Shown here one piece after another: positions 912 to 19,493 of a stretch of 64,000 bases of DNA; within the stretch, counting starts at the first letter, position 1; each line of letters begins with the position of its first letter. This stretch comes from Actinokineospora diospyrosa. GTDB taxonomy: Bacteria > Actinomycetota > Actinomycetes > Mycobacteriales > Pseudonocardiaceae. The notes below the pieces were generated by a model. That model saw only the letters and a program-made list of their open reading frames with translations. It was not told where the DNA came from and did not search any database. The translations under genes and the position numbers were made by a program. Location of the stretch: the NCBI RefSeq assembly GCF_024171925.1, contig NZ_JAMTCO010000011.1, forward strand, positions 1 to 64,000, in the 5' to 3' direction.

Positions 912-3900
912 TTATTCGGGTTGGATCCAGGCGATGTGCATGAGGGATTGGCCTACCTTGCGGCTGACCAGGGTGCCTCGGCCAGGGGGGAGGGCGGAGG
1001 GTTTGACGGTGCCCAGGAGGGCGCCTTCGTCTTTGCTGCCGCTCATGACGATGCCCGGGCTGGCGATTTCGCGGAGTTTGCCGAGGACCGGGTCGAACAT
1101 GGCGCGGCTGGCGCCGCCGGTGCGGCGGACGGTGATGACGTGCAGGCCGACGTCCTTGGCTTGGGGGAGGAACTCGGCGATGGGCTGGAGGGGGTTGTTG
1201 CCCTGGGTGGCCACCAGGTCGTAGTCGTCGACGATGACGAAGAGTTCGGGGCCCTTCCACCAGGAGCGGTTCTTCAGCTGCTCCTGGGTGACGTCCGGGC
1301 CGGGGAGGCGCTTGAGCATGGAGCCGCGGACGTCCTTGATCATGTCGCCGAGTTGGTTGGAGGAGACGGCGTAGCCGAGGAGGTGTTCGGTGTTGATGTA
1401 GCCCAGCATGGTGCGGCGGTAGTCGACCAGGATGATGACCGCTTCCTTGGGGGTGTAGCGGTCCATGATGCCGCGCACGATGACGCGCAGCAGGTTGGTC
1501 TTGCCGGACTCGCCGTCGGCGAAGGCGACGAAGTGGGGTTCGGACTCGAGGTCCAGGTAGACCGGGGCGAGGTCGTTCTCGTCGACGCCGATGGGGACGA
1601 GTTTGCTGTCGCGGCGGGGGTCCTGGGCGATGAGGTCCTCGTAGGGCAGCACCTCGGGCAGCAGGCGGACCTTCGGCGCGCTGCGGCCGCGCCAGGCGGA
1701 CTTGATCTTGGCGACCGCGTCCTGCACGCCACCGGCGACGTCCTCTGGGTTGCTGGAGCCGTCGACGCGGGGCAGGCCGGTGAGGAAGTGCAGCTTGTCG
1801 CGGGAGAGGCCGCGGCCGGGGCGACCGGCTGGCACGTTCACCGCGACCCGGCGGTCCACATCGGACTCCGATGGGTCGCCGAGGCGGAGTTCGAAGCGGG
1901 TGCCGAGCAGGTCCTTCAGGGCGGGCCGGATCTCGGCCCAGCGGTTCGCGGCGACGATCACGTGGATGCCGTAGGACAGGCCCTGAGCCGCCAGGTTGAC
2001 GACCTGCATCTCCAGCGTCTCGAACTCCTGGCGGAAGTTCAGCCAGCCGTCGACGATCAGGAAGACGTCGCCGAAGAGGTCGTCCTTGAGCTCACCGCGG
2101 CGCTTGCGGTTGCGGAAGTCGGTCATCGAGTCGATGCCTACATCGCGGAAGCGCTGTTCGCGTTCGGTCACAAGACCGGTCACCTCGGCCACCATCCGGC
2201 GTGCCTTGTCCGGGTCGATACGACCGGCGACACCGCCGACGTGCGGTAGGCCTTCCAGCGTGCCGAGCGTGCCACCGCCGAGGTCGAGACAGTAGAACTG
2301 GACCTCTTCGGCCGTGTGCGTAAGAGCCATGGACATGACCAGCGTGCGCAGCATCATCGACTTACCCGACTGCGGCCCCCCAGCGATGGCGGCGTGGCCC
2401 GAGGCACCGGAGAAGTCCGCCCACAACAGATCGCGGCGCTGCTCGAACGGCTTGTCGATGATGCCCAGTGGCACCTGGAGCCTGCCGTTGCCATAGAACC
2501 CGACCGGCGACAGACCTCGGTCGTCAGTGGGCTGCAACGGCGGGAAGAGCGTGTCGAGCGAGTTCGGCTCGTGCAGCGGCGGCAGCCATACCTCGTGTGC
2601 GGGCGGTCCTTGCCCCACAAGACGGTTGACGATGACGTCGAGCTCGCTGGCCTCTTGCCCACCCTCGGGCTTCTTCTCCTCAAGGACAGGCTCTAGCGGC
2701 TTCTCCGGCTCCTTGGGGATCTCCACATAGTCCGGCACGAACAGCTTCGCCCGCCGGTCACCGGAGACAGCTGCGACAGGTCCTGCTGCCTGCATGCCCG
2801 CAGGCCGGTACGGCCCGGACACGTATGCGGCCTTAAAGCGCACCATGGTGCTCGTGTCGAACTTCAGGTACCCGGAACCGGGAATCGACGGCAGCTCAAA
2901 CGCGTCTGGCACACCAATGGCGGCGCGCGACTCAGCAGCGGAGAACGTCTTAAGACCGATCCGGTAGGACAAGTGCGAGTCGAGACCGCGCAGCTTGCCC
3001 TCTTCCAACCGCTGCGAGGCGAGCAACATGTGCATCTGCAGCGAGCGACCAAGTCGTCCGATCGCGACGAAGAGATCGATGAAGTCCGGCTTGGCCGAGA
3101 GCAGCTCGGAGAACTCGTCGACCACGATGAACAGGGCGGGCAGCGGGTCGAGGTCGGCGCCGTTCTCGCGGGCCTTCTCGTACTCCCAGACGTTCTTGAA
3201 GTTGCCGCCGTTCTTCAGCGCCTCCTGGCGCCGGTTCATCTCACCGGCCAGCGCGTCCTTCATGCGGTCGACCAGCGTCAGGTCGCCCTGCAGGTTGGTG
3301 ATGACCGCGGCGACGTGCGGCGCGCTGTCGAGGCCGAGGAAGGTCGCGCCACCCTTGAAGTCGACCAGCACGAAGTTCAGCGTCGAGGACGAGTGCGTGG
3401 CCAGCATGCCCAGCACCAGCGTGCGCAGGAACTCCGACTTGCCGGAGCCGGTCGCGCCGATGCACAGGCCGTGCGGGCCCATGCCCTCCATCGCCGCTTC
3501 CTTGATGTCGAGTTCGACGGCCTGGCCGAACTCGCCGACGCCGAACGGGACCCGGTAGCGGTCGCGCACCGGCCGGGGCCGCCACGCCTGCTGCACGTCG
3601 AAGGTCATCGGGTCGCCGGGGATGCCGAGCAGCTCCAGCAGCGTCGGGTTGGACAGCAGCGGTTCCTCGTCACCGGAGTCCGCGGCCGCGGCGGAGAGCC
3701 GGTACGGCGACAGCTTGCGCGCCAACGCCTCCGCCTCGGCGACGCTGAGCACGTCCGGGCTGGCGAACCACTCCACGCCGGAGGCGCTGCGCGCCCCGAG
3801 CCGGTCGGCCTCGACCACCAGCCGCAGCCCGCGCCGGGCGGTGAGGTTGCCCAGGCACTCGGAGAGGTCGACCAGGGTGACCCCGACCAGCCCCTCCTCG

Positions 3901-4904
3901 AGGATGATCTGCTCCTCCTTGGTGACCTCGCCGTCGTCGATGACGATCACCACGTGCGGCTGGTCCGGCTGCGGCGGGGCGTTGCGGGTGAACCGCTGCC
4001 GGTCGCGCAGCTCCTCGTCCAGCCAGGCCTCGATCTGGGCCAGCGAGCCGCTCATCATGCGCAGCTGGCCGATGCCGTCGAGCAGGTTCGGGTGCTGGGC
4101 GTGCGGCAGCCACTTGACCCACTCCCACTCCGCCTTGGCCTTGCCCGAGGTGACCACGGCGATCAGCACGTCGTCGGGGGTGTGGAAGGTGACCAGCTGG
4201 GCGAGCAGGGCGCGGGTCAGGCCCCGGGTGAGCGCCTTGTCGCCGGTCAGCCCGACCGCGGCGAACCCGCGCACGGCGACCTGGATGGGCAGGTCGGGCA
4301 CGATCGAGTGGGCGCGCACGAACCGGCGCAGCGCCAGCGTCGCGATCGGCTCCAGCTCGTCGACCGGACCGGTCTGCGGCGGCACCAGCCGGGTCGCCAA
4401 CCGCTGCGAGCCGCGGCCCACGCGCAGGTGGCAGAAGTCCGAGTCGGCCTGGCGGCGCTCCCACATCCGCCTGCTGGTCGCGATCGACCACAGCGCCTGC
4501 GGGTCCGGGTGCGTCCACTCCAGCGACGAGCGCTGGTCCAGCGCGGCCTCGCGGGCCCGGTCGCGCATCTGGCCGAGGTAGCGCAAGTAGTCCTTGCGGT
4601 CCTCGTTCATCTCGGCCTTCTTCTGGCCGCCGCCGCGCCCGCCCATGCCACCGGCCATCATGCCGACCGTCGACATCAGGAACATGCCGCCGAACAGCAG
4701 CGAGGTGGGGTTGCGCCCGCCGATGACGAACATGAAGACCATCATGCCCACCGAGGCGACGATCATGACCCCGGGCAGGATCTTCATCAGGATGTTGCCC
4801 GGGATGACCCGGGGCACCTCGGGTGGCGGTTCGAGGTGGACCTCGCCGCCGGGCTGCCTGGGCGCGGCAAGGCGGGGCGAACGCTTGAACTGCAGCGTGC
4901 TCAC
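912..4904 (-). CDS. eccC: Type VII secretion FtsK/SpoIIIE-type ATPase EccC
   Basis: This is the motor ATPase of the ESX translocon; it recognises substrates and powers export across the inner membrane. The product is 1330 aa, usual for fused EccCa-EccCb. Two membrane segments lie at about 38-62 and 67-89. Three ATPase domains follow: ATPase 1 with Walker A GATGSGKS (483-490) and Walker B LFIVVDEF (591-598); ATPase 2 with GGPQSGKS (842-849) and a degenerate VDGW; ATPase 3 with ADGESGKT (1129-1136) and VIVDD. Only ATPase 1 keeps the full Asp-Glu Walker B, as in the family. I chose the GTG at 4904, with GAGG about 10 nt upstream, over a 30-codon N-terminal extension. Gene order resembles mycobacterial ESX-4. 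Confidence 0.95.
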   Translation of the reverse strand: MSTLQFKRSPRLAAPRQPGGEVHLEPPPEVPRVIPGNILMKILPGVMIVASVGMMVFMFVIGGRNPTSLLFGGMFLMSTVGMMAGGMGGRGGGQKKAEMNEDRKDYLRYLGQMRDRAREAALDQRSSLEWTHPDPQALWSIATSRRMWERRQADSDFCHLRVGRGSQRLATRLVPPQTGPVDELEPIATLALRRFVRAHSIVPDLPIQVAVRGFAAVGLTGDKALTRGLTRALLAQLVTFHTPDDVLIAVVTSGKAKAEWEWVKWLPHAQHPNLLDGIGQLRMMSGSLAQIEAWLDEELRDRQRFTRNAPPQPDQPHVVIVIDDGEVTKEEQIILEEGLVGVTLVDLSECLGNLTARRGLRLVVEADRLGARSASGVEWFASPDVLSVAEAEALARKLSPYRLSAAAADSGDEEPLLSNPTLLELLGIPGDPMTFDVQQAWRPRPVRDRYRVPFGVGEFGQAVELDIKEAAMEGMGPHGLCIGATGSGKSEFLRTLVLGMLATHSSSTLNFVLVDFKGGATFLGLDSAPHVAAVITNLQGDLTLVDRMKDALAGEMNRRQEALKNGGNFKNVWEYEKARENGADLDPLPALFIVVDEFSELLSAKPDFIDLFVAIGRLGRSLQMHMLLASQRLEEGKLRGLDSHLSYRIGLKTFSAAESRAAIGVPDAFELPSIPGSGYLKFDTSTMVRFKAAYVSGPYRPAGMQAAGPVAAVSGDRRAKLFVPDYVEIPKEPEKPLEPVLEEKKPEGGQEASELDVIVNRLVGQGPPAHEVWLPPLHEPNSLDTLFPPLQPTDDRGLSPVGFYGNGRLQVPLGIIDKPFEQRRDLLWADFSGASGHAAIAGGPQSGKSMMLRTLVMSMALTHTAEEVQFYCLDLGGGTLGTLEGLPHVGGVAGRIDPDKARRMVAEVTGLVTEREQRFRDVGIDSMTDFRNRKRRGELKDDLFGDVFLIVDGWLNFRQEFETLEMQVVNLAAQGLSYGIHVIVAANRWAEIRPALKDLLGTRFELRLGDPSESDVDRRVAVNVPAGRPGRGLSRDKLHFLTGLPRVDGSSNPEDVAGGVQDAVAKIKSAWRGRSAPKVRLLPEVLPYEDLIAQDPRRDSKLVPIGVDENDLAPVYLDLESEPHFVAFADGESGKTNLLRVIVRGIMDRYTPKEAVIILVDYRRTMLGYINTEHLLGYAVSSNQLGDMIKDVRGSMLKRLPGPDVTQEQLKNRSWWKGPELFVIVDDYDLVATQGNNPLQPIAEFLPQAKDVGLHVITVRRTGGASRAMFDPVLGKLREIASPGIVMSGSKDEGALLGTVKPSALPPGRGTLVSRKVGQSLMHIAWIQPE

Positions 4905-4950
4905 CGGGTGGACACCTCTTCGACTCGGCTGGCGGGAGGACGGGGAAAAG

Positions 4951-5310
4951 CTACCGAACCACCGGTCCGTTCCCGGTGGACTTCGACCGCGCACCGGGTA
5001 AGACCGCGCTCACGAACACCGCGACCAGGAACAACGCGCCGCACAGGGCGCCGACGAGACCGCCGCCGGAGATCGCCTGGAAGTAGGTCAGCCCCGCGGC
5101 GACCGCGAGCCCCAGCACGGCGACGGCGAAGCGGCCCGGCCCGCTGGAGCGGCGACCGAGCAGCACGACCACGGCGACCAGCAGGAACAGCCCGCCGAGG
5201 ACCAGCCTGGTCGTGGTGGCCCCGGCGACGAGCAACGGCACCGCGGCGGCCACCGCGGCCGCCCCGAGGACAGCCGCTGGCAGCACAGGACTCTGGTCGT
5301 GCGCGGCCAT
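4951..5310 (-). CDS. Small four-helix membrane protein upstream of eccC
   Basis: The product is about 119 aa and almost wholly hydrophobic. It has four predicted membrane segments, a small positively charged loop (GRRSSGPGR) and a basic tail. It lies 46 nt upstream of eccC on the same strand, so it is probably co-transcribed, and is divergent from eccD. A GAGGGGGG ribosome site precedes the ATG at 5310; a GTG one codon earlier is possible. I do not recognise a family. The context suggests an accessory membrane part of the ESX system, which is inference. Confidence 0.75.
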   Translation of the reverse strand: MAAHDQSPVLPAAVLGAAAVAAAVPLLVAGATTTRLVLGGLFLLVAVVVLLGRRSSGPGRFAVAVLGLAVAAGLTYFQAISGGGLVGALCGALFLVAVFVSAVLPGARSKSTGNGPVVR

Positions 5311-5413: not shown

Positions 5414-5426
5414 ACCTGTGGACAAC
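5414..5426 (-). promoter_or_regulatory. DnaA-box-like site in the eccD/four-TM divergent region
   Basis: The 13-mer ACCTGTGGACAAC contains TTGTCCACA on the minus strand, the preferred actinobacterial DnaA box. It sits 17 nt before the eccD start. The same 13-mer occurs at 13178-13190 between eccB and eccE. Confidence 0.4.
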
Positions 5427-11461: not shown

Positions 11462-13096
11462 TCAGCCGCCCGGCGTCGGTTGCGGTGCTGGGGCGGGTAG
11501 CGCGGACGGTGTGGTGGACGGGAACTTGCCCGCGCCGACCGGCACCACGTCGTAGGTCTGCAGCACGTCGCGGGTGTTGAGCGACGCCCCGTTGGGCAGC
11601 AGCCGCACGATCGCGTCCGGGGCGGGCAGCTGGTCGGCGAGGCCGAGCGCGACGGCCGTGCGCTGGTCGGGGATGCCGAACTTCACGCCGCGGTCGGAGA
11701 TCAGGTAGATCGGCCCGGTCGCGAAGTCCTGCCTCGAGGTGGCGCCGCGGACGACGGCCGCGCGGCCGGGCGGCATGTAGAAGTGGTTCAGCCGCTGCCC
11801 GTCGGCGCTGGGGGTGGTCACCTCGATGGAGGCGGGCTTGCCGGACGCGTCGCGCGGCAGCGGCAATTCCTTGCCCACGTGCACCTCGGTGTGCTGGTCG
11901 GCGGTCGGGCCGGTGCCGACGATGTTCCACCCCAGGCAGGCGACCGGGTAGTTCGCCGGGCTGAGCACCTCGGGCACGGACTCCGGGTACGTGGTGTCGT
12001 CGACGACGCGGGTGGCCGAGGCGGCCGGGATCTGGTCCGGCCGGACCTTGGTGATCTCCGCGCCGCCCTCGGTCGTGGTGAACCGGATCAGGTCCGCGGT
12101 GGTCTTCTTCACCTGCTGCACGCGGTCGAGCAGCAGCACGTAGTAGTCGGTCTGCCCGGCGCGCTCCACCTGCACGACCGTGCCGACCGGCATGCCGTTC
12201 ATGTTGATCTGGCTGCGCTCGCCGCGGCCGGGGATGGTCGGCGGCGTGAGCGCGGGGGCCTCCGGGATGGCGTTGAGCAGGCCGGTGGTGATCTTGCGCA
12301 CCGAGCCGTCCGACAGCGCGAGCGCGGCGCGGACGTTGCCCTTGCTCATATCCACCTTGGCGCGCACCGTGTTGGCGTTCTTGATGTTCGCCGTCGACGG
12401 GGTCCGGTAGACCAGGTACGTCTCGCCGGTGTCGGACTTGACCAGCAGCGCCTCGTTGACCGCCAACTCCGGGCCGAGGTCGGTGTGCCCGCCAGCCACG
12501 GTCGTCTCGATCTTGTTGTCGGCGGCCGGGTTGTTCAGGCTCTGGTCGATCTTGTACTCGTCGCACACCGCCCAGTCGGCGCCGATGCGCTGACCCGCGC
12601 CGGGCAGCAGCTGCGGGCCGTCCTGGATGCCGGTGAGCCGGTCGCGGGCGATGCCGACGAGCTTGTCGTCCGGGATCACCTCGGCCTCCATCGGACCGGT
12701 CCCGCCACCGGCGTCGGTCTGGCTGCCCGGCTGGCCCTGGGCGCCCGGGTTGGTGCGGGCGAGCAGCAGCAGCCGCGCCGAGGCGAGGTTGAAGGTGGGG
12801 ATGAGCACCTTGCCCTTCTCGGTGTTGGTGAGCAGCACGTACACCGCGCCCGAGGGCTTGGCGATGATGATCCCGGACTCGTTGGGCAGCTTCGGCGCGG
12901 GCTTGAGCAGCCCGTAGACCAGGAAGCCGATCACGGCGACGGCGGCGATGCAGACGCCGACGACGGTGGCCCTGCTGTGCGTGCGCATCGGGTCGTGGAG
13001 CATGACCGCGTCCTTGCGCACCAGGGCGGACTGCATCCGCCGCAGCACGAAGCGGTACGCCTGGACCTGGGACTTGGTTGTCGGTGTTGATGGCAT
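11462..13096 (-). CDS. eccB: Type VII secretion protein EccB
   Basis: EccB is the mostly periplasmic ESX membrane component; mycobacterial versions were reported to have ATPase activity. The 544-aa product begins MPSTPTTKSQVQAYRFVLRR, the usual family start. It has one membrane helix at about 43-64 and a large extracytoplasmic domain with a conserved Cys pair region (WAVCDEY ... VACLGW), ending in a Pro-rich tail. The open frame continues far upstream, antisense to eccE, but the family-type N terminus and a GGGGAGAGCAGC site set the ATG at 13096. It is divergent from eccE and heads the eccB/EspC-like/WxG unit. Confidence 0.94.
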   Translation of the reverse strand: MPSTPTTKSQVQAYRFVLRRMQSALVRKDAVMLHDPMRTHSRATVVGVCIAAVAVIGFLVYGLLKPAPKLPNESGIIIAKPSGAVYVLLTNTEKGKVLIPTFNLASARLLLLARTNPGAQGQPGSQTDAGGGTGPMEAEVIPDDKLVGIARDRLTGIQDGPQLLPGAGQRIGADWAVCDEYKIDQSLNNPAADNKIETTVAGGHTDLGPELAVNEALLVKSDTGETYLVYRTPSTANIKNANTVRAKVDMSKGNVRAALALSDGSVRKITTGLLNAIPEAPALTPPTIPGRGERSQINMNGMPVGTVVQVERAGQTDYYVLLLDRVQQVKKTTADLIRFTTTEGGAEITKVRPDQIPAASATRVVDDTTYPESVPEVLSPANYPVACLGWNIVGTGPTADQHTEVHVGKELPLPRDASGKPASIEVTTPSADGQRLNHFYMPPGRAAVVRGATSRQDFATGPIYLISDRGVKFGIPDQRTAVALGLADQLPAPDAIVRLLPNGASLNTRDVLQTYDVVPVGAGKFPSTTPSALPAPAPQPTPGG

Positions 13097-13177: not shown

Positions 13178-13190
13178 ACCTGTGGACAAC
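13178..13190 (-). promoter_or_regulatory. DnaA-box-like site between eccB and eccE
   Basis: The 13-mer ACCTGTGGACAAC (TTGTCCACA on the minus strand) lies 38 nt before the eccE start. It is identical to the site at 5414-5426 in the other divergent ESX intergenic region. Confidence 0.4.
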
Positions 13191-17632: not shown

Positions 17633-17664
17633 GCCCCCGGGAGACACGGACGTCTCCCGGGGGC
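17633..17664 (+). terminator. Intrinsic terminator after the protease
   Basis: A perfect 13-bp stem (17633-17645 with 17652-17664) and a 6-nt loop are followed by TTTCCC, 23 nt after the stop codon. Confidence 0.9.
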
Positions 17665-17689
17665 TTTCCCTGCCTTTTGTTCGCTGCCC

Positions 17690-17895
17690 GACCAGGTGAA
17701 TCCCGCCCGCTTGTCCGCGCATCCCCTGGACATTCCCCAGGTCAGCGCCTGGCTGCAGTTGTCCACAACGCCCCAGTTATCCACAGATTTCCGCCGACCC
17801 CCCGTTTGATCTTGACCCGCGATAGACTGGCACCGGGGACGCCCCCCGTGGTGTGGTGGGGGCTGGGGCCAACGATCTTGATCGGCGGCGGGACG
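17690..17895. repeat. DnaA-box element, copy A (206 bp)
   Basis: This is the first of three copies that align without gaps. Fixed landmarks from the left end are GACC(A/G)GGTGAA at offset 0, GTCAGC at 51, DnaA box 1 at 69, DnaA box 2 at 87, TAGACT at 133 and a CGATCTTG block near the end. The last third contains CACCGGGG...CCCCGTGGTG, which can pair as a bulged hairpin. No open frame explains it. Confidence 0.9.
17759..17785 (+). promoter_or_regulatory. Paired DnaA boxes, copy A
   Basis: TTGTCCACA (17759-17767) and TTATCCACA (17777-17785) lie on the same strand with 9 nt between them. Both match the bacterial DnaA-box consensus TT(A/G)TCCACA. Confidence 0.75.
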
Positions 17896-18008
17896 TCGGC
17901 GGACCTCAGCGCAGGTTGCTCGATCGGACTCCCAGCCGACGATCGAGCCCATCCTGGGCGGTCGCCGAGCACCTAGCGCGCACACCTCATCGTCCGGCGA
18001 GCCTGCCC

Positions 18009-18214
18009 GACCGGGTGAACCATCGCGATCGATCCCGCCCTGACCTGCCATCCGCCCAGGTCAGCGCGCTGCGCAAGTTATCCACAACGCCCCGGTTATC
18101 CACAGATTCTCGCCAGCACCCCATTTGATCTTGACCCGCGATAGACTGGCACCGGGGACGCCCCCCGTGGTGTGGTGGGGGCTGGGGCGAACGATCTTGG
18201 TCGGCCGCGGGACG
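18009..18214. repeat. DnaA-box element, copy B (206 bp)
   Basis: The second gap-free copy lies 113 bp after copy A; landmarks fall at the same offsets. Similarity to copy C extends about 25 bp further left (CGTCCGG block), so the original unit may have been longer. The spacer between A and B shows nothing I can name. Confidence 0.9.
18078..18104 (+). promoter_or_regulatory. Paired DnaA boxes, copy B
   Basis: TTATCCACA at 18078-18086 and TTATCCACA at 18096-18104 have the same 18-nt start-to-start spacing as in the other copies. Confidence 0.75.
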
Positions 18215-18351
18215 CCGGAGGGCTCCGGTGGGGGCTTCGAAGCAGGGGCGTCAGGGCCCCGGTTGATTGGCCGACGGTCGAGGTCTGGGGATGCGACCGG
18301 GCGGCCGATAGGCACAGAATGCGAGCGCTTCGTCGTCCGGTGAATCGGCTC

Positions 18352-18557
18352 GACCGGGTGAATGATCCCGATCAATCCTGCCTCGACCTGCTATTTGCCC
18401 TGGTCAGCTCGTTGCGCGAGTTATCCACAACGCCCTAGTTGTCCACAGATTTTCGCCAGCACCCCGTTTGATCTTGACTGTCGATAGACTGGCACCGGGG
18501 ACGCCCCCCGTGGTGTGGTGGGGGCTGGGGCGAGCGATCTTGGTCGGCCGCGGAGCG
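18352..18557. repeat. DnaA-box element, copy C (206 bp)
   Basis: The third gap-free copy lies 137 bp after copy B and ends about 90 bp before the truA stop codon. The box-to-TAGACT distance is again exactly 37 nt. The spacer 18215-18351 has no recognised feature. Confidence 0.9.
18421..18447 (+). promoter_or_regulatory. Paired DnaA boxes, copy C
   Basis: TTATCCACA (18421-18429) and TTGTCCACA (18439-18447) have the same orientation and spacing as in copies A and B, with the two box variants in reverse order to copy A. Confidence 0.75.
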
Positions 18558-18647: not shown

Positions 18648-19493
18648 CTACAGGGTTCGCACGCGGCGGGTTTGTTCGGCGCGGGTGGCCAGGTCTTCGT
18701 CCGCCGGGTAGTCGACGGCGGTTAGGGAGAGGCCGTGGGCGGGGGCGACGGTGATGGCGCTGGGGCGCTCGGTGGCGGTGAGCATGGACGCGGGCCAGTC
18801 CGGGTCCTTGCGGCCCTCGCCGACGGCCAGGAGGGCGCCTACGAGGCTGCGGACCATGGAGTGGCAGAAGGCGTCGGCGGAGACCCGGGCGGTGAGGGTG
18901 CCGTCGGGCTCGCGGGACCACTGCAGGCGCTGGAGTTCGCGGATCGTCGTGGCGCCCTCGCGGCGTTTGCAGAAGGCCACGAAGTTGTGCTCGCCGACCA
19001 GCAGGGCGGACGCGGCGTTGAGGGCGTCCAGGTCGAGCGGCCGGGGCCAGGTGACGATGTGGTTGCGGCGCAAGGGATCCGCGAGCCACTGGCGGTCGCA
19101 CACGCGGTACGCGTAGTGCCTGCGGAGGGCGCCGAAGCGGGCGTCGAACGCGGGCGGCACCCGTCGCGCGCCGGTAACCCTCACGTCAGCGGGTAAAGCG
19201 CGCGCGAGCCGGAACACCAGCGCCTCGGGCTCGACGTCGGCGGGCAGGTCGACGTGGGCGACCTGGCCGGTGGCGTGCACGCCCGCGTCCGTGCGGCCCG
19301 CGACCGTGAGCCGGGCCTTGCGGCGCAGCACGTGGAACAGCGCCTCCTCGAGCACGCCGCACACCGTGCGCCGCTCGGGCTGCACGGCCCACCCGGAGAA
19401 ATCCGTGCCGTCGTAAGCGATGTCGAGCCGAACGCGGACGAGCCCGCCGTCCCCGGTGGGGGCGGCGGGCTCGTCGCGGTGCTGCTGGGTCAG
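18648..19493 (-). CDS. truA: tRNA pseudouridine(38-40) synthase TruA
   Basis: TruA isomerises uridines 38-40 in the anticodon stem-loop of many tRNAs. The 281-aa product has the N-terminal [14 protein letters not shown] strand and the catalytic motif [12 protein letters not shown] (Asp69). The conserved N terminus lies in frame upstream of the first GTG (19385), so that GTG cannot be the real start. Going upstream, the only plausible initiator before an in-frame stop is CTG at 19491-19493. It overlaps the rplQ stop as CTGA and gives [10 protein letters not shown] non-canonical start coupled to rplQ is therefore likely. It is the last gene of the infA-to-truA operon; no clear terminator follows. 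Confidence 0.92.

Follow-up and report, generated by a model that had tools for sequence, protein, structure and literature searches.

A dispersed non-coding repeat of Actinokineospora diospyrosa with DnaA boxes as the probable upstream operator of a predicted -10 element

The intergenic array between a subtilase gene and truA in the window (the whole stretch of 64,000 nucleotides from Actinokineospora diospyrosa that was analysed) is probably made up of a non-coding repeat that resembles a promoter, is dispersed in the genome and stands here in three tandem copies; its DnaA boxes would act as the upstream operator, a reading based on sequence comparison. In the general layout the inner box ended 37-41 nt before a TANNNT hexamer, the outer box lay 18-19 bp farther upstream and a G/C-rich block followed the hexamer. 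The layout was found again in several subfamilies of the repeat, in further species of Actinokineospora, in the copies from Kibdelosporangium and upstream of at least two ESX genes. The fixed distance between the box and the promoter -10 element, which recurs far beyond the window repeat, is the feature that a preliminary description of this DNA had missed.

The three copies aligned without gaps over 255 nt, starting at 17637, 17956 and 18299, with copy-to-copy spacings of 319 and 343; copies 1 and 3 were 70% and 84% identical to the middle copy. A blastn search with the middle copy recovered the other two at 83% and 87% identity over ∼220 bp. All six boxes of the array matched TTRTCCACA exactly, the 9-mer that equals the textbook DnaA box, and were located within 0.7 kb of non-coding DNA as three pairs, each spaced 18 bp start to start. 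From the end of the inner box to TAGACT there were 37 nt and from the end of the outer box 55 nt. No open reading frame (ORF) with a coding signature was found between the stop of the subtilase gene (17609) and truA (18648-19385, minus strand), both of which were named by Pfam. The array comprised the following features:

17633..17664, plus strand: inverted repeat resembling a terminator, 3' of the subtilase gene and followed by the array; also present in congener G298
17684..17902, plus strand: repeat copy 1 (core 17758-17867)
17759..17767, plus strand: outer DnaA box of copy 1, TTGTCCACA
17777..17785, plus strand: inner DnaA box of copy 1, TTATCCACA
17823..17828, plus strand: predicted -10 element TAGACT of copy 1 (putative role)
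17980..18230, plus strand: repeat copy 2, used as query in the genome search (core 18077-18186)
18078..18086, plus strand: outer DnaA box of copy 2, TTATCCACA
18096..18104, plus strand: inner DnaA box of copy 2, TTATCCACA
18142..18147, plus strand: predicted -10 element TAGACT of copy 2 (putative role)
18330..18553, plus strand: repeat copy 3 (core 18420-18529)
18421..18429, plus strand: outer DnaA box of copy 3, TTATCCACA
18439..18447, plus strand: inner DnaA box of copy 3, TTGTCCACA
18485..18490, plus strand: predicted -10 element TAGACT of copy 3 (putative role)
17837..17861, 18156-18180 and 18499-18523, plus strand: invariant G/C block of copies 1 to 3 with a C5-6/G5 inverted repeat, from the alignment

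The preliminary description had reported three indel-free copies, same-strand TTRTCCACA pairs at 18 bp, TAGACT 37 nt past the inner box, a region free of genes and a position away from dnaA/dnaN, all of which held; the portion of the unit common genome-wide was a core of ∼110 bp. The genome (8.1 Mb in 29 contigs) carried a single dnaA on contig C7 and the window was part of contig C11; the array is not oriC, since dnaA and dnaN do not adjoin it. The genome-wide search for box pairs at 18-bp spacing, as proposed earlier, recovered the pair with its 9-nt gap ten times, including the three pairs of the array, and its reversed pattern not once. The sequence TTGATCTTGAC was common to the three copies and occurred together with TAGACTGGC at just one other place in the genome (up to three mismatches), so that the array has most likely grown by tandem duplication.

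The G/C block had also been described as hairpin-prone. The inverted repeat was indeed present, but when the 45 nt starting 12 nt after the first base of TAGACT were folded in 106 copies, they did no better than their dinucleotide shuffles (mean z +0.32, one copy below -1), and a stable hairpin beyond the effect of composition was therefore discarded. A known structured RNA was ruled out by the absence of a match to Rfam at the gathering score, for which part of the window and five loci were searched.

The 3' module of the repeat, TAGACTGGCANCGGGGNCGCCCCCCG, matched the genome 111 times (53 and 58 matches on the two strands with two mismatches allowed; control, 1 and 0), and blastn of copy 2 against the same genome gave 49 matches. 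The examined set comprised 106 copies in 66 arrays, after one of 107 pattern matches (L119:2283) was dropped because it did not contain the motif. Single copies made up 37 of the arrays, while 19 were double, nine triple and one quadruple, and the copies within an array were on the same strand, head-to-tail. Based on their upstream motif, 56 copies were classed as type-1 (window-like) and 50 as type-2. The outer box of type-1 copies was exact in 47 of 56 cases and ended 55-56 nt before TAGACT in 48 of the 49 recognisable ones; it had an information content of 0.9-1.8 bits per position compared to 0.1-0.6 bits just upstream (56 copies). The inner box was exact in 15/56 and had at most two mismatches in 43/56; among the 43 recognisable inner boxes, 42 had TAGACT 37 nt past their end. 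The window copies are unusual in this respect, as all six of their boxes are exact. Type-2 copies had a single box (exact in 49/50) 49-50 nt before TAGACT, and TGTCRG 16 nt ahead of TAGACT in 41/50. According to the preliminary description, scattering of the element without conservation of its boxes would have spoken against a DnaA-related role; the copies were scattered, but the outer type-1 and the type-2 boxes were conserved at the frequencies given above.

The TGTCRG motif pointed to RecA-independent P1 promoters (RecA-NDp), for which the consensus tTGTCRgtg, 8 nt, TannnT has been outlined (PMC5656591). PafBC is described as being activated by ssDNA and as reprogramming the housekeeping holoenzyme at P1 promoters (PMC11804915). 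Over the 106 copies, TGTCRG was in place in 45 and TGTCRGTG-N8-TANNNT was matched in 38. In contrast to P1/PafBC promoters, the repeats mostly had no gene behind them, were repeated and had DnaA boxes ahead, and the motif TTGTCRGTG-N8-TANNNT was absent from the window copies. There, TTGATCTTG occupied the P1 position, as TTGATCTTG-N8-TAGACT in two copies and with a changed spacer in the remaining one; in the absence of P1, the window copies would be DnaA-box promoters lacking the damage motif. The literature searched contained nothing that joins the DnaA box with PafBC, or DnaA with Actinokineospora, and nothing recognisable as a box/-10 repeat among the matches listed.

A blind sample of 20 stretches of 20 kb (400 kb) was picked by coordinates alone. 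It contained 28 boxes and one reversed motif. A TANNNT hexamer was located 39-41 or 57-59 nt downstream of 24 of these 28 boxes, many boxes in this and the following spacing counts being repeat copies and not independent; among random positions the share was 0.8%, with a slightly wider window. TGTCRG-N10-TANNNT followed 19 of the 28 boxes, and a box-like sequence was present within 65 nt upstream of all 12 P1-like sites of the sample and of all five strict P1 sites. Most of the 28 boxes belonged to a third form of the unit, present in eight of the 20 stretches, in which a box pair 19 bp apart was followed by TGTCRG-N10-TAGGCT and then GTATATCGGGGGC; some third-form units had a single box and TAAGCT.

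In the window, the spacing was followed by 8/9 boxes. Two of these eight lie outside the repeat and are cases separate from its copies:

5417..5425, minus strand: DnaA box followed at 40 nt by TAGTAT (5376-5371); a 120-aa ORF and an FtsK/SpoIIIE-family (EccC-like) gene (912-4994) lie downstream
13181..13189, minus strand: DnaA box followed at 39 nt by TATCCT (13141-13136); an eccB gene (11462-13096, PF05108) lies downstream

Both of these non-repeat boxes stand upstream of ESX/type VII secretion genes. Outside the TAGACT repeats, 8/25 boxes obeyed the spacing (loci of the same genome around the elements and the dnaA region), as did two of four boxes each in congeners G298 and G302. For sister species G296 and G297, 40 boxes not retrieved previously were used in the order of the list. 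A spaced TANNNT was found for 16 of them (13 at 38-40 nt and three at 56-58 nt) and 24 did not follow the spacing; TANNNT occurred elsewhere within 0-90 nt in four cases and in the 100 nt upstream in one. Among loci of other genera, three of 20 boxes obeyed the spacing and seven had TANNNT at 68 nt instead. Some units of G297 differed strongly in sequence, with TAGAAT followed by AGGGGTTCCCC, which indicates that the box/-10 layout is common beyond close sequence identity. Part of this regular spacing is due to common descent from a small number of ancestors.

The genome contained 757 TTRTCCACA boxes and 35 copies of the reversed motif; the other 15 congeners had 100-520 and 13-40, respectively. 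In the 294 Actinomycetes genomes outside the genus the maxima were 116 and 113 (the sample of 296 genomes included two of Actinokineospora and no other genus of the Pseudonocardiaceae). The TAGACT repeats account for just part of this excess. In 607 kb of loci around these repeats, where copies are over-sampled, 116 of 138 boxes were situated in copies. The oriC boxes of the genome, in the dnaA-dnaN gap, include TTGTCCACA.

The position of the arrays relative to genes was analysed using a simple ORF caller based on GC3, and four of the 66 arrays were dropped because they were at the edges of loci. The remaining 62 consisted of 33 in convergent gaps, 18 co-directed and 11 opposed in same-strand gaps, and none in divergent gaps, whereas the background of gaps >200 bp in the 400-kb sample was 29 convergent, 41 tandem and 17 divergent. 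By this distribution, the elements avoid promoter regions and are seldom able to serve the next gene. A role as promoter of the downstream gene was rejected, with the next gene on the same strand for 18/62 arrays and convergent for 44/62, and no common downstream gene was apparent among the ORFs listed 3' of the arrays.

The truA gene was found in all 16 genomes of the genus, and in none of the 15 congeners was a TAGACT-type copy present within 1.5 kb of its 3' end. In the three nearest congeners, G298, G302 and G308 (TruA 90, 91 and 87% identical), the subtilase gene faced truA across ∼90-120 bp. The terminator-like inverted repeat of the window recurred in G298 immediately ahead of the end of truA, with no box; G302 had one TTGTCCACA at this place. 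The array-free site in relatives implies a gain of ∼1 kb in the lineage of A. diospyrosa or independent losses, of which the gain would be the simpler account. Elsewhere on the window contig, a triple array corresponded to one copy in G302 and to a short stretch resembling the 5' end of the repeat in G298; another copy was common to G298 and missing from G302. These differences show that copies have been gained and lost at the compared sites. The dominant repeat variants differed between species. Conservation of the array at the same site in sister species, which the preliminary description had proposed as support for a function, was not observed (0/15 congeners), and its suggestion of a single datA-like regulatory locus had to be given up: the box cluster is there, but the arrays are dispersed over many contigs. 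Its other suggestion, a mobile repeat carrying DnaA boxes, agreed better with the 111 dispersed matches and the presence/absence differences between close species. A phage or plasmid vehicle was rejected, because viral contigs had no match for three patterns and blastn of phage and plasmid records gave none either.

Named records matching TAGACTGGCANCGGGGNCGCCCCCCG were from Actinokineospora inagensis, A. globicatena and two Kibdelosporangium species only (25 stretches). With one mismatch allowed, TAGACTGGCANCGGGGNCGCCCCCCG matched only the A. diospyrosa genome and one congener among the 296 genomes of the class. The Kibdelosporangium copies (L088) had kept the two boxes, TAGACTGGC and the C/G block. 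A pattern of GTTATCCACA followed by a strict P1 occurred in 13 of 200 Pseudonocardiaceae genomes and in four of 46 genera. As it is found in other genera, the pairing of DnaA box and P1 may predate the repeats; this is a lead and not a count, since the search pattern required both.

If TANNNT is a sigma-A -10 element, transcription would start ∼7 nt beyond it, i.e., ∼12 nt after its first base, which would place the boxes at about -56 and -74. DnaA would bind there as an upstream operator, a position from which an activator or a repressor could act. DnaA is the presumed ligand because the same box is present in the dnaA-dnaN gap and because it is a known regulator, described as a transcriptional activator or repressor (PMC8203912). 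In many copies, PafBC may also be required, via the P1 motif, to transcribe a short G/C-rich RNA upon DNA damage. The invariant G/C block may serve as a terminator close to the transcription start or form R-loops, to which folding adds nothing beyond composition. Copies would multiply by local tandem duplication and reach new intergenic positions downstream of the 3' ends of genes. Together, they would provide the genome with a large pool of DnaA sites, and both the transcription and the occupancy of these sites would change in response to replication and DNA damage; simple arithmetic suggests that hundreds of sites would partly titrate DnaA unless it is very abundant. A bolder version, which we regard as improbable, is that Actinokineospora has made DnaA a genome-wide, damage-linked regulator, with hundreds of box/-10 units, many of them with a PafBC P1 motif, that would produce G/C-rich non-coding transcripts upon accumulation of ssDNA and would also spread a DnaA sink over the genome or even allow emergency starts of replication primed by R-loops.

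The repeat could instead be selfish or neutral, a non-autonomous element amplified from a regulatory ancestor whose boxes and -10 element are passengers without a role, and we consider this a serious possibility with somewhat less than an even chance. The 111 module matches, the tandem arrays, the presence/absence of copies in close species with gain and loss at compared sites, the avoidance of divergent promoter regions and the species-specific dominant variants would all agree with it. However, boxes and spacing were retained while adjacent positions varied, and the spacing was also retained in unlike-looking subfamilies of other species and in the two ESX upstream regions. Terminal inverted repeats, target-site duplications or a transposase were not recognised in an unsystematic look, which for the repeats and duplications covered the window copies, whose type-1 boundaries are uncertain, and the compared sites.

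It is rather unlikely that the boxes mainly titrate DnaA, as a spread-out version of datA or of the clusters in Bacillus subtilis and Streptomyces coelicolor. The 757 exact boxes in 8.1 Mb, far above the 294 genomes outside the genus, would fit such a sink, and datA-like clusters have been reported in S. coelicolor and B. subtilis (PMC5742627), but titration does not need a fixed distance to a -10 motif, and a range of 100-757 boxes within one genus means that no fixed dose is kept. That the bound factor is another regulator with the same 9-mer appears less probable still: the usage of the boxes does look transcription-factor-like, yet the 9-mer is the same as in the dnaA-dnaN gap and in the textbook box. 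DnaA itself, moreover, is among the described activators and repressors (PMC8203912).

The repeat resembles the Correia elements, MITEs of Neisseria outlined as intergenic repeats of 100-200 bp with >100 copies, sigma70-like promoters and an IHF site (PMC10969869), and shares with them the many intergenic copies of a short non-coding sequence (111 matches against 1 in the control). Correia elements are described as being mostly upstream of genes and as having terminal inverted repeats (PMC10969869), whereas the present copies are located behind genes, have DnaA boxes at a fixed distance and are arranged head-to-tail in arrays. With datA and the S. coelicolor and B. subtilis clusters, as far as these are summarised in PMC5742627, the array has in common that it is non-coding, contains several DnaA boxes and is intergenic, downstream of genes. 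Unlike them, the repeat is spread over many loci, has a promoter-coupled layout and is lacking from the corresponding site of the congeners.

Two open questions in actinobacteria are what amount of DnaA is kept from oriC and how DNA damage is linked to initiation. A genus with 100-757 exact boxes, many at a fixed distance from a -10 element and often beside a PafBC motif, provides natural variants, and its low- and high-copy species allow DnaA titration, DnaA-driven transcription and the damage response to be tested directly. Cells of this soil bacterium may bear a large and so far unexplained load of transcription-linked DnaA sites.

Several other elements were observed in the course of the analysis. 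A composite non-coding unit (L243:11698 minus, L244:18238 minus, L248:4430 plus and L054:1895 minus) contained two successive box-pair/P1-like promoters ∼130 bp apart, followed by a ∼150-bp palindrome and then by degenerate repeats in tandem, some tens of bases long; Rfam had no match for this or a similar unit in five loci. A palindromic element with arms like GATGGGGCGAACT was present at L054, L070, L132, L259 and L261, partly in a region absent from congener G298. An array at L044:5300-5500 contained a long homopolymer run of G/C that includes N and is probably an assembly artefact. At L113:4932-5500, a triple type-2 array ended ∼140 nt ahead of an ORF of 892 aa, which by eye appeared to be NACHT-type ATPase-like. 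Five loci from outside the genus were opened (L151, L152, L154, L155 and L158), and in four of them a YgjP-like metallopeptidase gene was located just downstream (Pfam on one of them, PF01863). In L151, L152, L155 and L158, from other genera of the Pseudonocardiaceae, this gene had a P1 promoter and DnaA boxes upstream.
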